A DNA stretch of 46,773 nucleotides, taken from a virus. Both the position numbers and the translations under genes were made by a program. The DNA is taken from the IMG/VR virus record IMGVR_UViG_3300009009_000019, positions 1-46,773 of that record; one strand, 5' to 3'. Within the stretch, counting starts at the first letter, position 1. Every line of letters begins with the position of its first letter. The notes under the pieces were generated by a model that was given only the letters and a program-made list of their open reading frames with translations, was not told where the DNA came from and did not search any database. Of the stretch, positions 19,749-38,216 are shown one piece after another.

Positions 19749-20798
19749 TTATACGTACTTTCCACCAGACGCCACAAGATTGATGACATCGTCAGGAGTC
19801 TTGGGTGCTGGAAGTGCTGTGGTGGAGGTACCGACAGAGGTAAGGGTACGACTGACCGAAGGCCTTGGCGTCAGGCGCCCAATACCTTTTGTTACATTCT
19901 CATACGCTTGCTCTGCAAGACTGATAACGTCTTGCTGAGTTTTTACCTGCGCGCTTTGAAGCATGGTGTTGAAACGACTTTGCACAAATTCCCACAGGCC
20001 GTCTGGCTCACTTGCGTTCACCTTTGGCTTGAAGTCTGGGTTTGTAGCGCGCTTCGCTTTATCCCAACTATTCACCGCTTCAACCATCGAGTTGCGAGAG
20101 CGAGTCTGTTCGGTTTCGATAGACCGCAGACGTCGTTGCTCCTCGACTTTTTGTTGGGCGAGTGTCTTGTTGAGTTGCTTTGCACGCTCTAGGCTGATCT
20201 TGCCTTCGTTGACCTCCTGTTGCAGGTCCTCGGGCAAGCCATCGCCGTTGACATACTGCTGTAAAACCTGCATGACCGGGGTCAATCGCTCAAGCGCCTT
20301 TGCTGGGTTTGTGTTCAGCAGAGCAGTTAGCTCAAGGGCGTCGTTTAACTGAGCATCAGTGATGCTGTTTGCTTCGCAGTATTGGTTCAACTTCACCACC
20401 CGCTCAGCCATTGGTTTTAGAGACTCAACCTCTTCACGGAGTGTCCTTGCCTCTTCGACCTTCTGCTGCCAACGGGGGTGCGCATGGAATGGTAGGTCTT
20501 CGACCTTTTCTTCTGTCTGCTCCGCCTTAGCGGGTTGTGGCACAGGTGGCGACTGTGCGTCGCTGTCTTTCTTTTCTTCGGCTGGCGGGGCCGACAGCTT
20601 GGCAGATAACTCACTAATGACCTTATCTGCTGTCTGTTCGCCTTCCGACGGAGACGGGGCCGTCGTAGAAGCTGGCGCTTCTGTAGGTTTAGCGTCTGTT
20701 GTGCTTGCCGGTGTAGACACCACCGGCGTCGCAGTTGCCTCGACTGACGGGGTCGTGGTCTCTTGTTTAGCGTCGAGAGTTTCAGTGTTGGGATCCAT
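19749..20798 (-). CDS. Scaffolding protein
   Basis: 349 residues, highly charged and low complexity. Residues 1-100 are Thr/Pro/Ala/Glu-rich; 110-240 are predicted coiled coil (K-V-E-E-A-R-T-L-R-E-E-V-E-S-L-K), with a long helix K-V-E-E-Q-R-R-L-R-S-I-E-T-E-Q; the C-terminal 90 residues are Thr/Ser-rich. Composition, length and position between portal and capsid are those of a phage scaffold that is removed during head maturation. The start overlaps the portal gene by 17 bases. Confidence 0.8.
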   Translation of the reverse strand: MDPNTETLDAKQETTTPSVEATATPVVSTPASTTDAKPTEAPASTTAPSPSEGEQTADKVISELSAKLSAPPAEEKKDSDAQSPPVPQPAKAEQTEEKVEDLPFHAHPRWQQKVEEARTLREEVESLKPMAERVVKLNQYCEANSITDAQLNDALELTALLNTNPAKALERLTPVMQVLQQYVNGDGLPEDLQQEVNEGKISLERAKQLNKTLAQQKVEEQRRLRSIETEQTRSRNSMVEAVNSWDKAKRATNPDFKPKVNASEPDGLWEFVQSRFNTMLQSAQVKTQQDVISLAEQAYENVTKGIGRLTPRPSVSRTLTSVGTSTTALPAPKTPDDVINLVASGGKYV

Positions 20799-28187: not shown

Positions 28188-28606
28188 AACATAAAGCCTA
28201 CAACCCTCTTAAGCTGTCCAACAGCTTCCGTAGCAAGCACCTTGTGCGGACCTACGTCCACGAGCGCAACAGCTACCCGATGACGGACAGCGACAAGGCA
28301 AAGCTTACAATAGCTGCTTCGCGGGATAAGTTTGTGGCCTTGTGTGAACAGCACAGATACGTCCCGCCTATGCCAAAGACGGATTGGCGCTTTGTTGACA
28401 ACGGGCCTTATGGACAGCCTAGTGGCATACCTTCTTTCTTTGGTCGCCTTGTGGCTACCAACGGTCTTCTATGTCTCATAGAGACCATAAGCGGGCTGGT
28501 GTGGTCTCACAGCGATAGCTTTAAGCCCGACAAGGCAGAGAAGGCAGAGCGTCGCGCGAAGAAGCAAACAAAGTTTGACCTTCTCCTTGAGAAACTTTTA
28601 GCATGA
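28184..28606 (+). CDS. Hypothetical basic protein
   Basis: 140 residues, basic at both ends. H-K-A-Y-N-P-L-K-L-S-N at the start; W-R-F-V-D-N-G-P-Y-G-Q-P-S-G and S-F-F-G-R-L-V-A-T-N-G in the middle; a Lys/Arg-rich helix (A-E-K-A-E-R-R-A-K-K-Q-T-K) near the end, possibly for nucleic-acid contact. ATGA-coupled on both sides. No family recognised. Confidence 0.65.
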   Translation: MKHKAYNPLKLSNSFRSKHLVRTYVHERNSYPMTDSDKAKLTIAASRDKFVALCEQHRYVPPMPKTDWRFVDNGPYGQPSGIPSFFGRLVATNGLLCLIETISGLVWSHSDSFKPDKAEKAERRAKKQTKFDLLLEKLLA

Positions 28607-28788
28607 AAACAAACTGGACAAAAGAGTATTTTCTTGAGCGCACAGGTCGTCTACCAGAAAACGACGATCTGGACCGTGTAAATTGTAAGGACGCTGGAAA
28701 ACTTGGACATAATGACTGCGGCGTCTGTATGCACAACTATCCCATGTTTATGTGCCCAGTCTGTTTTGGTAAAACTGAAACAGATTAA
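28603..28788 (+). CDS. Small Cys-rich (zinc-ribbon-like) protein
   Basis: 61 residues with C-K-D-A-G, then C-G-V-C-M-H-N and C-P-V-C near the end. The two C-x2-C pairs could bind one zinc ion. The start overlaps the previous stop as ATGA. It ends eight bases before the first tRNA-like element. Small zinc ribbons in phages often modulate host transcription; here that is only a possibility. Confidence 0.65.
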   Translation: MKTNWTKEYFLERTGRLPENDDLDRVNCKDAGKLGHNDCGVCMHNYPMFMCPVCFGKTETD

Positions 28789-28795
28789 CCTTTAT

Positions 28796-28895
28796 GACTC
28801 CGTGGCGGAAAATACAGACGCAGAGAAGACGCACAAAGCTCTCGGGCTGGTTGCTTAGCGTCACCAGCCTTGCAGGTGCAAACCCTGTCGGAGTC
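28796..28895 (+). tRNA. tRNA-like element 1 (class II shape, no standard anticodon)
   Basis: 100 nt. GACTCCG pairs with CGGAGTC as a 7-bp acceptor stem. TGGCGG...CGC forms a Leu-type D-arm, but the D-loop lacks GG. GGCTGGT/ACCAGCC forms a long variable arm. GCAGG-TGCAAAC-CCTGT is a T-arm with an altered loop. The expected anticodon arm is replaced by a 4-bp stem with a 13-base loop that contains a duplicated AGACGCA. No encoded CCA. It may be degenerate or a tRNA mimic. Confidence 0.45.
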
Positions 28896-29427
28896 ACTCC
28901 CTTTGCCGACCTATGCAAAACACGTAGGAACAGCACAAACTGGACGTTGAACCATCCCGTCCAGAGTAAAACCCAAGGGCAAGCAGCGGACAATAGTAGC
29001 TTCGGCTGGTCCGCAGTTCTAACTGCTCCCTCTGGCGACACTACACAGCGTATGTGCAGCATGGAAAACTATGTAAGGAGAACGTTAAAGGTGAACACGT
29101 GCGAAAGCGAAAACCTATCACTTTTATCACCCGCGCCTGTGCTGGCCGAGCCGCAACCTTGCGGAACAAGGTTAATCAGCAACCGCTGCGGCGAAGAGCA
29201 AGAGAGCACATGCCTGCGAAGCAAGATCGTTTGCACCAGGACTCTTGCGGCGGGTGGTTTCTTTTTGACGGCAGCGACGATGGAGAAGATATGATGTTGC
29301 AACATCAGCTTCACGGATTAGGCGAAAGCCGATTAGCCCCAATCGCTACACTGTCGTCAACGGCGGTGCTGACGAGTCAACAGCTTAAAGACAGAGCTTT
29401 GAATCTGTCGCCGTCACCTAACTTTAT
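28896..29427 (+). other. Stretch between tRNA-like elements
   Basis: About 530 bases without a confident gene. Two overlapping frames are open (81 codons ending at 29294, and 174 codons from 29054 to 29578 that runs through the next tRNA-like element). Neither has a leader or clear protein pattern. Short hairpins occur, for example CTGGACG / CGTCCAG near 28940 and an AGC-TTCG-GCT tetraloop inside GCGGAC / GTCCGC near 28990. Confidence 0.4.
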
Positions 29428-29529
29428 GAGCGCGTGGCGGAATGAAGACGCAAGGGTGCAGTCTTGTGGACGGTCAACTGCAATGGTAATCCAGTCCACT
29501 TATAGGTTCAAATCCTGTCGTGCTCACCA
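29428..29529 (+). tRNA. tRNA-like element 2 (class II shape, encoded CCA)
   Basis: 98 nt plus ACCA. GAGCGCG pairs with CGTGCTC, followed by ACCA. The D-arm is TGGCGG-AATGAAGA-CGC (no GG in the loop). The variable arm is GTGGAC / GTCCAC. The T-arm is ATAGG-TTCAAAT-CCTGT with a normal T-loop. The anticodon arm is GCAAG-GGTGCAGT-CTTGT, giving an 8-base loop instead of 7, so the anticodon is uncertain. Preceded by TTTAT like the other two elements. Confidence 0.55.
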
Positions 29530-29536
29530 TTTTTAT

Positions 29537-29667
29537 GGGCGCGTGGCGGAATGTAAAGACGCCGGTATCTTGGCTTAATGCGTATGTGTGACAACGACTA
29601 TCAGAAGCGCCAAGCACAAAGGACTGAAGTTAAGCACACAGTTGCAGGTTCAAATCCTGCCGCGCTC
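29537..29667 (+). tRNA. tRNA-like element 3 (class II shape, enlarged middle)
   Basis: 131 nt, starting seven bases after element 2. GGGCGCG pairs with CGCGCTC; the D-arm is TGGCGG-AATGTAAAGA-CGC; the T-arm GCAGG-TTCAAAT-CCTGC is perfect. The anticodon and variable regions are replaced by about 80 bases with competing pairings (GCC-GGTATCTT-GGC; TGTGTG / CACACA; CTTGGC / GCCAAG). No normal anticodon can be assigned, and there is no encoded CCA. Confidence 0.5.
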
Positions 29668-29688
29668 GCCCTTTAACCACAAACCACA

Positions 29689-30003
29689 ATGAACGAAAAC
29701 TCTACGGCGGACACGCCTGCTGAACTAAAACACGCAATCCGTGACCACTTTCGTGAGGAGGCGGAACGGCTCCGCGCCGACTTAAAATGCGAACGCGCCC
29801 GCATGGTGTTGCTTGGCGGCGATGCTGTCATTGCCGAGCGTATGCGCGCAGACAGGGCAGAAGCAGAACGCGACGAACTCCACGCCGAGAACGAGCGGTT
29901 GCGTCGTGACTTCCACAACATTCTTTACATGGTAAACACCGGAGCGACCAAGGAACAACTGGTAGTCCGCATCACCGGTGCACTGGAGGAAACTCAACCG
30001 TGA
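29689..30003 (+). CDS. Coiled-coil protein
   Basis: 104 residues. From about 10 to 75 it is a continuous charged coiled coil (F-R-E-E-A-E-R-L-R-A-D-L-K-C-E-R-A-R, then R-A-D-R-A-E-A-E-R-D-E-L-H-A-E-N-E-R-L). A short C-terminal globular tail has T-G-A-T-K-E-Q-L-V. Such proteins are common in phage middle regions, often as structural spacers of unknown role. The next feature is a structured gene-free interval. Confidence 0.65.
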   Translation: MNENSTADTPAELKHAIRDHFREEAERLRADLKCERARMVLLGGDAVIAERMRADRAEAERDELHAENERLRRDFHNILYMVNTGATKEQLVVRITGALEETQP

Positions 30004-36576: not shown

Positions 36577-36858
36577 ATGCTCCCTCTCTATCTCCCTTGG
36601 TCAGTTGAACTTCTTCCGCGTGACGAAGGCGGACCACAGCACTGCTTTCTCTGTAACTCTCTTGGCACTGTTATTGCATCTTTCAACGACGCCTCTGTCG
36701 CCGACTCTGTCGCTCTGCGTGTAAACCTTCACGACGAACTCTTTAAGCAACTAGAAAACGCAGAAGACCAGATTGTCGACCTTGTAGAGAGCGTCGAGAA
36801 AGCTGAGAAAGAAGTCGAACGCCTTGACAAAAAACTACAAGAATACCAAAGCGCATGA
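36577..36858 (+). CDS. Small coiled-coil protein
   Basis: 93 residues from the ATG at 36577. The start contains P-R-D-E-G-G-P-Q-H-C-F-L-C-N, one C-x2-C. The second half is a coiled coil (D-Q-I-V-D-L-V-E-S-V-E-K-A-E-K-E-V-E). Upstream starts (GTG at 36553, ATG at 36565) fall inside the palindrome and are less likely. ATGA-coupled to the ParB-methyltransferase gene. Confidence 0.6.
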   Translation: MLPLYLPWSVELLPRDEGGPQHCFLCNSLGTVIASFNDASVADSVALRVNLHDELFKQLENAEDQIVDLVESVEKAEKEVERLDKKLQEYQSA

Positions 36859-38216
36859 CAACACTCCCCCTCTCCTCTATCGTTGTAAACGAACGCATTC
36901 GTTATGAAGACGAAGACATCGTCGACCTCGCTGCTTCTATTAAACGCCTCGGACTTCTCCAGCCTATCCTCGTTGATCAGAACAACGTGCTGCTTGCCGG
37001 GTTTCGCCGCTACACTGCGTGTAAAACGCTTGGATGGACTGAAATTCCAGTGCACCGTCGTGAGTCTCTCACCGAAAGTGAATACTTCGAGGTCGAACTC
37101 GAAGAGAACTTTCGTCGGAAAGACTTCACCTGGCAAGAGACCGTCGCCTCGGTCTGCAAAATCCACCGCCGCAGAACGCAACAAGCTATTCTCGCTGGTG
37201 CGAAGTGGTCTCAACAAATGACCGGCGAACTCCTCGGCGGCTACAGCGACAGCTACGTCTCTAACTGTCTCATGTTAGAGCCACAGCTACCAGCCTTAGC
37301 CGAGTGCACCACCATCACCGATGCAGTCCGTGAGCTTTATCGTAAGAAAGAAGACGAAGCAGTTGCGATACAAGCTGCTCGTCTCCGGGCTGGGATGTCT
37401 CAAGACACCGACCCTTTTGCCTCACCTGAAGAGGGTCTTCTCGGCACCGGTGATGTCTTTATCCCCGCCTCCGACACCAGCGACGCCTCTATCGAGGTCA
37501 ACCTCTCAAGCACCTGCTTGCAAGGTGACAGCATCCGTGACATCCTCCCCAAGCGGCCCGACGCATGTGTCGACCACATCATAACCGACTGGCCTTTCGC
37601 CATCAACATGTCTAACATCCAACAAAGCAGTGCTGGCATGGACGTCAGTCGCACAGCAGCCGCTCACGACGTCGACGAGAACCTCGAACTACAGCGACTT
37701 GCTGTGGTACAGTTCTACCGCATCCTACGTCCCGGCGGCTTCTGTGTTATCTGGCACGACGCGATGTGGTTCCGCTGGACACACGACATCTGTGCTAACG
37801 CCGGCTTCACCGTTCAACGCTGGCCCATCGTTGGCTGTAAACCTTCCGCCCAAAACACTTGCGCAAACATCAACATCACCAAAACAACCGAGCAGGCTAT
37901 CGTCATGCACAAAGGTGTAGCGTCTCTACCAAAGGTAGTCTCTTCAAGCTGGTTCTTCATGCCGCCACCAGAAGAGAAACTCTCCAACCCCTTCGCTAAG
38001 TCCTTCGAGGCGTGGGCATACATCATCGAGGCTGTTAGCATAGAGGGGCAGACAATCCTCGATCCGTTTGCAGGCGAGGGCACCTGTCCCCTCGCGTGTC
38101 TACGTCTCATGCGCAAACCCATCGCTATCGAGAAAGACCCCACGCACTACACCTACATGCTCACGTCCGTGCGCGACTGGTGGCAAATCAAGTTCCCCAA
38201 CGCTAAGTTTATATGA
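36855..38216 (+). CDS. ParB-like / DNA methyltransferase fusion
   Basis: 453 residues. Residues 1-95 form a ParB/Srx-like domain: G-L-L-Q-P-I-L-V at 33-40, A-G-F-R-R-Y-T-A-C-K-T-L-G near 48-60, and E-E-N-F-R-R near 83. Residues about 218-440 form an amino-methyltransferase: T-D-W-P-F (244-248) in place of the usual D-P-P-Y/F motif IV, then D-P-F-A-G-E-G-T (403-410) as motif I, the beta order. It likely methylates phage or host DNA; the ParB part may read the target. The Trp in motif IV is unusual. Confidence 0.8.
   Translation: MTTLPLSSIVVNERIRYEDEDIVDLAASIKRLGLLQPILVDQNNVLLAGFRRYTACKTLGWTEIPVHRRESLTESEYFEVELEENFRRKDFTWQETVASVCKIHRRRTQQAILAGAKWSQQMTGELLGGYSDSYVSNCLMLEPQLPALAECTTITDAVRELYRKKEDEAVAIQAARLRAGMSQDTDPFASPEEGLLGTGDVFIPASDTSDASIEVNLSSTCLQGDSIRDILPKRPDACVDHIITDWPFAINMSNIQQSSAGMDVSRTAAAHDVDENLELQRLAVVQFYRILRPGGFCVIWHDAMWFRWTHDICANAGFTVQRWPIVGCKPSAQNTCANINITKTTEQAIVMHKGVASLPKVVSSSWFFMPPPEEKLSNPFAKSFEAWAYIIEAVSIEGQTILDPFAGEGTCPLACLRLMRKPIAIEKDPTHYTYMLTSVRDWWQIKFPNAKFI

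Follow-up and report, generated by a model that had tools for sequence, protein, structure and literature searches.

Phage RNAs with tRNA-Leu-like ends, variable structured centres, and no standard anticodon arm

Three tRNA-like elements, E1 to E3, are found at positions 28796 to 29668 of the window, a 46.8-kb virus fragment. The same ends surround wholly different centres in dozens of unrelated phages, so these elements look like an undescribed phage RNA family and not like broken tRNAs. Their architecture, as read from the sequence comparisons, is that of a selected chassis whose ends are retained from phage to phage around a centre that lacks an anticodon arm and is exchanged. As to function, we consider it an evenly balanced possibility that E1 to E3 are phage-specific, nondecoding chassis derived from tRNA-Leu that display exchangeable structured RNA and probably act on host factors. 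No published description of this family was found in the literature searched, the scope of which left out preprints and most subscription journals. The features of the region are as follows.

28796-28896, + strand: E1, tRNA-like RNA (acceptor/T-arm scan, helix search)
28796-28802/28889-28895, + strand: E1 acceptor stem, GACTCCG/CGGAGTC
28803-28821, + strand: E1 D arm, TGGCGG...GACGC, loop AAAATACA
28822-28871, + strand: E1 centre, with the variable hairpin at 28844-28851/28863-28870
28828-28832/28858-28862, + strand: possible loop-loop helix of E1, GACGC/GCGTC
28872-28888, + strand: E1 T arm, GCAGG-TGCAAAC-CCTGT
28896, + strand: E1 nucleotide 73, A73
28897-29425, + strand: structured, apparently noncoding stretch (MFE z-score of -2.09; 2 of 100 shuffles equally good)
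29267-29418, + strand: possible fourth, more divergent tRNA-like element (by eye and MFE fold; weak)
29428-29529, + strand: E2, tRNA-like RNA with encoded CCA (Rfam RF00005, 29.6 bits)
29428-29434/29519-29525, + strand: E2 acceptor stem, GAGCGCG/CGTGCTC
29435-29451, + strand: E2 D arm, TGGCGG...GACGC, loop AATGAA
29457-29462/29477-29482, + strand: E2 helix S1, TGCAGT/ACTGCA, would cross S2
29466-29471/29494-29499, + strand: E2 helix S2 (variable stem), GTGGAC/GTCCAC, would cross S1
29502-29518, + strand: E2 T arm, ATAGG-TTCAAAT-CCTGT
29537-29668, + strand: E3, tRNA-like RNA (Rfam RF00005, 29.4 bits; exact D-arm match to the family)
29537-29543/29661-29667, + strand: E3 acceptor stem, GGGCGCG/CGCGCTC
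29544-29562, + strand: E3 D arm, TGGCGG...GACGC, with the family-consensus loop AATGTAAA
29569-29574/29609-29614 and 29585-29590/29635-29640, + strand: predicted crossing helices CTTGGC/GCCAAG and TGTGTG/CACACA in the 81-nt E3 centre
29644-29660, + strand: E3 T arm, GCAGG-TTCAAAT-CCTGC
29668, + strand: E3 nucleotide 73, G73

Rereading of the sequence and a helix search confirm the positions given in the initial annotation, as well as the 7-bp acceptors, TGGCGG-type D arms, and T arms that it described in all three elements; the T arms have 5 bp. The acceptors are perfect, with one G-U pair each in E2 and E3; the TTCAAAT T loop is present in E2 and E3 (TGCAAAC in E1), E2 alone encodes CCA, and none of the three D loops contains GG. 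A scan of the window for a 7-bp acceptor contiguous with a T arm recovers E1, E2, E3, and one chance match within a gene, whereas six dinucleotide-shuffled versions of the + strand yield no elements. For the D-arm string, the number expected by chance is 0.07. E2 and E3 only narrowly exceed the cut-off of the Rfam tRNA model (29 bits). ARAGORN with default settings calls no tRNA in the window, no Rfam family other than tRNA exceeds its gathering cut-off, and no ribozyme family matches. On the + strand, the elements are flanked by small open reading frames (ORFs) at 28603-28788 and 29689-30003 and are situated upstream of the genes encoding a ligase, an exonuclease, a Sak4-like annealing protein, a ParB-methylase, a polymerase, and a primase. 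In the ParB-methylase (36855-38216), a single protein combines a ParB-like nuclease half with a DNA methyltransferase half. Searches for near relatives of this phage returned none with the ligase as the query, and the relatives found with the polymerase (L003 and L004) lack the E1-E3 region.

The ORFs between E1 and E2 (28897-29425) have no PHROG or Pfam family match. Protein coding of 28794-29294 or 29054-29578 was considered and rejected, with no PHROG or Pfam match and a frame composition that differs from that of the adjacent genes. In the possible fourth element, GACGGC (29267-29272) pairs with GCCGTC (29410-29415), and the latter strand is adjoined by a T-arm-like hairpin, GACAG-10 nt-CTGTC (29390-29409), and followed by ACC; no relatives of this element were found.

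A scan of IMG/VR for the D-arm string, with G at both 18 and 19 excluded, identifies 104 contigs, about 40 of them with a complete element, i.e., with a matching acceptor and T arm. After removal of seven ordinary decoding tRNA-Leu, the set comprises 46 distinct nondecoding elements, including the three in the window. An independent scan for the T arm and 3' acceptor alone (TGCAGGTTCAAATCCTGCCGYGCTC) yields 33 stretches, 21 of them already known; all 12 new ones have a matching 5' acceptor, an altered D arm, and no ordinary anticodon arm. The T-arm-only and second-type scans together add about 20 contigs. The altered D arm can be a 5-bp hairpin, GTTGC-GGAA-GCAAC (L180 and L182), and the member at 647-856 of L174 carries a hairpin (AACATC...GATGTT) inserted in its D loop; thus, the D arm is also able to take an insert. 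Element length varies from about 73 to 273 nt.

The family looks virus-specific, since the only match to the D-arm string in 85,000 prokaryote genomes (L173) is a coding coincidence, located within an open coding frame and without a T arm. Some members are found in or beside ordinary tRNA arrays (L022, L029, L055, L078, and L079), and there is no constant neighbour gene: in neighbour clustering, at most 6 of about 42 loci share any family. The cultivated Leptospira phage LE1 (L061; 73,623 bp; NC_048892) carries a member at 20090-20215, between gp16 and gp17, that has no annotation in the record and has a D loop identical to that of E1. Its relatives L186 and L187 show a compensating acceptor change from G7-C66 to A7-T66. 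In Pseudanabaena phage Pam2, a Leu-like element of 149 nt contains GG and has an expanded centre, and Pseudanabaena phage PA-SR01 has the 5' half of an element only. Stretches of about 900 to 1,500 nt mostly without annotated genes adjoin the tRNA-Leu-like elements of PA-SR01 (L189, 2002-2912) and Pam2 (L190, 365-1900). BLAST searches of named phages with a short element gave nothing but T-arm matches among the best hits.

The ends of these elements are conserved to a degree (85% identity across members) that contrasts with the centres. Pairing in the acceptor, D, and T stems reaches 98.6% over 32 distinct sequences, a percentage biased upward because an element was recognized only if its acceptor and T stem paired. 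That search does not account for the diversity of compensating pairs: there are 84 double-compensated cells in the stems, compared with 17 after shuffling, stem covariation is 0.530 versus 0.151 for shuffled sequences, and two-sided changes are seen at 12 of 16 pairs. The conserved chassis includes the acceptor stem, a 3-bp D stem, A14 A15, T48, and the T arm; D-loop A14 A15 is invariant, as in the A15-U48 core pair of tRNA-Leu, and nucleotide 48 is T in all 46 members. The discriminator is mostly A73 (26 of 40), with G, T, and C also found. A D-loop G at positions 16 to 19 occurs together with T55 in 43 cases and its absence with G55 in 10, with 0 exceptions. Because the two covary so strictly, the main type probably keeps the G18-U55 contact through its single D-loop G and has lost G19-C56.

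The centres, counted from C25 to the T arm, are 23 to 223 nt long and have no sequence relation to each other (47.3% identity between members, 46.5% after shuffling). They nevertheless fold better than their shuffles (MFE, Stouffer z of -7.2 versus shuffles). Helices with a 3' strand that stops 2 or 3 nt short of the T stem are strongly overrepresented (z of -5.3 and -4.5), those that stop 1 nt short of it weakly so (z of -2.1), and offsets of 0 and of 4 to 11 give no significant signal. In tRNA-Leu, the variable stem ends two nucleotides before the T stem. Statistically, then, the centre is structured and retains a Leu-like variable stem. The long variable stem described initially is a simple hairpin only in E1; in E2 and E3, its 5' strand sits in the loop of the anticodon arm. 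The same is true of many members: a helix begins shortly downstream of the D arm, and its loop contains this strand, which would make the two helices cross. When the variable stem is kept constant, a crossing helix is favoured over shuffles overall (Stouffer z of -2.8) and singly in E2 (P = 0.035); that of E3 is not better than shuffles (P = 0.22). These values are suggestive of a possible anticodon-arm/variable-arm pseudoknot in the predicted folds of E2 and E3. Centre topology varies among members, and therefore no single cargo fold is conserved. An antisense-guide reading was rejected: the longest complement of a centre to Escherichia coli rRNA is 11 nt and that of E1 to E3 to their own genome is 10 to 11 nt, in both cases the same as for shuffled sequences.

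The elements share with decoding tRNAs a 7-bp acceptor and a 5-bp T arm with a T loop. They lack the G18 G19 that would pair with U55 C56 (no GG in E1 to E3), and an anticodon arm at the canonical offset, with a 5-bp stem, a 7-nt loop, and T33, is found in none of the 46 members and in all seven ordinary controls. This bears out the initial statement that a standard 7-base anticodon loop is absent and, for the same reason, leads to the rejection of suppressors with odd anticodons; the 8-base anticodon loop assigned to E2 is in fact a 14-base loop closed by TGCAGT/ACTGCA. Compared with phage class II tRNA-Leu (RF00005), the family has the same acceptor, Leu-type D stem, T arm, nucleotides 8, 14, 15, and 48, and variable-stem linker but differs in the missing anticodon arm and G18G19 and in having centres that are unrelated between members. 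The member at 10556-10653 of L015, the centre of which still permits a Leu CAA-like anticodon loop (GGTTG-TTCAAGA-CAATT), is perhaps a transitional form from tRNA-Leu. Two ordinary decoding phage tRNA-Leu (L064, - strand, 7565; L046, - strand, 9356) have the D loops AACTACCA and AATTACTA and the T loops TGGGAAT and TGGGAGT, respectively; here, both the canonical GG and the canonical TTC are replaced, and C19-G56 may be a swapped pair.

The elements of tmRNA are also partly recognizable: a tRNA-like end, a replaced anticodon arm, and pseudoknots, which are only predicted in the phage elements. The latter, however, are small, keep the D stem, and have no conserved reading frame or tag; the window has no match to the tmRNA model (RF00023) and the elements have no conserved ORF. 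A tmRNA-style embedded peptide was rejected, as the commonest D loop reads ATG TAA and thus no frame is conserved. A true tmRNA (RF00023, 117.6 bits), with an unusual tag peptide predicted by ARAGORN, is found on the - strand of L039 (3202-3532), a phage contig with a family member of its own. Theta ribozymes are likewise structured, pseudoknotted RNAs associated with phage tRNAs and adjoin them with the cleavage site next to the tRNA (PMC10879173); they flank the tRNA, whereas in this family the structure replaces the tRNA interior.

Judging from alignments between contigs, the elements are transferred whole between unrelated phages, and in related phages the ends persist and the centre is exchanged. 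L010 and L079 have in common one 145-nt stretch of 97% identity, which is exactly the element, and nothing else. A second (type II) chassis, GACTCAG-CG-GCGTGG..ACACGC...GGTGCAATTCC..CTGAGTC, with the 3' part CTGAGTCACC, is found in 12 contigs (L071, L180, L182, and L192 to L200). In L071, L180, and L182 it adjoins the first chassis, and E1 takes an intermediate place between the two types. Type II elements are arranged in arrays with AATTT spacers; their centres are unrelated, 29 to 142 nt long, and show no positional signal of the variable stem. In L071, L194, and L196, the flanking genes are 79 to 83% identical and the type II element ends are 89 to 96% identical, but the centre is not common; thus, centres have been replaced between fixed ends.

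Decaying tRNA genes, as proposed initially, or selfish recombination sites resembling attP-like 3' tRNA ends would account for the lost anticodon, and integrase targets do resemble a tRNA T arm and 3' acceptor. As a general account, this reading is already refuted, and it is highly improbable for E1 to E3, because the same unusual D loop, the invariant nucleotide 48, and strongly covarying stems recur across dozens of unrelated phages; in addition, the L089 and L099 elements are identical although their flanks are only 93% identical, and the 5' half, unneeded by an att site, is retained. The least credible reading is that of tRNA genes with a small intron of an unknown kind that decode after splicing. 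Most centres do exceed the normal tRNA length, and ARAGORN calls one element when introns are allowed, but several centres (23 to 37 nt) are as short as in ordinary tRNAs and still have no anticodon arm, no member has one at the canonical offset, and no conserved splice motif is seen.

With decay and suppression set aside, tRNA mimics acting on host factors are the most plausible of the three options offered initially. The main rival to a displayed centre, itself rather unlikely, is that activity resides in the acceptor/T-arm end, which would act as a sponge for host enzymes directed at the 3' ends or the elbow of tRNAs, such as CCA-modifying or acetylating toxins or a tRNA-sensing defence, with the centre as filler that folds away. 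Conservation is highest in the top half, which the scan without the D arm found on its own, and phage tRNAs are a known evasion route from tRNA-targeting defences (PMC10264068; PMC11555353). A sponge, however, leaves unexplained the wholesale replacement of centres and the intact transfer between phages, and the centres are structured beyond chance, with a precisely placed variable stem. LeuRS does not read the anticodon, and the elements could be nonproteinogenic aminoacyl-tRNAs, charged probably by LeuRS and diverted to a nonribosomal reaction. This is quite improbable, although the Leu-type D arm, A15, T48, a 2-nt variable-stem linker like that of tRNA-Leu, and the prevalence of A73 speak for it. 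The nonproteinogenic tRNA-Gly of Staphylococcus aureus, used for the cell wall, likewise has GG at 18-19 replaced and A51-U63 in the T stem (PMC4052509), the latter being a weak EF-Tu T-stem feature that is found in 29 of 32 aligned members. Those tRNAs, however, are chromosomal, of normal class I length, and serve peptidoglycan, and they have an intact anticodon, the arm for which is absent from the phage elements. Moreover, the discriminator varies, neighbour clustering places no amino acid transferase or synthetase gene beside the elements, and variation of the centre should be unnecessary. This charged nondecoding tRNA, like the intron and decay, is less likely than the sponge.

Under the preferred reading, that of a chassis displaying exchanged RNA, host tRNA maturation enzymes (RNase P, 3' processing, and CCA addition) would release the RNA from the transcript of the array, and its tRNA fold would give it stability. 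Without G18G19 (G19-C56) and an anticodon, it would stay out of translation, and the chassis would present the structured centre in a manner comparable to that of the artificial "tRNA scaffold" used for the expression of cargo RNAs. The displayed part may bind or occupy a host factor, with counter-defence or host takeover the most likely role because of the fast turnover and horizontal spread. More tentatively, at least two tRNA-derived chassis with swapped cargo might form an arms-race library of hypervariable, horizontally exchanged RNA effectors or decoys against host factors, which, if true, would be a natural counterpart of the engineered tRNA scaffold.

The family represents a class of phage small RNA genes that tRNA finders and annotation have overlooked, LE1 being an example. 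Should its members prove to be tRNA scaffolds with a cargo, they would constitute a new type of phage RNA effector; should they prove to be sponges, the host enzymes that read the tRNA top half would come to light. Either reading separates the parts of a tRNA that serve maturation and stability from those that serve decoding, and a cultivated system exists.
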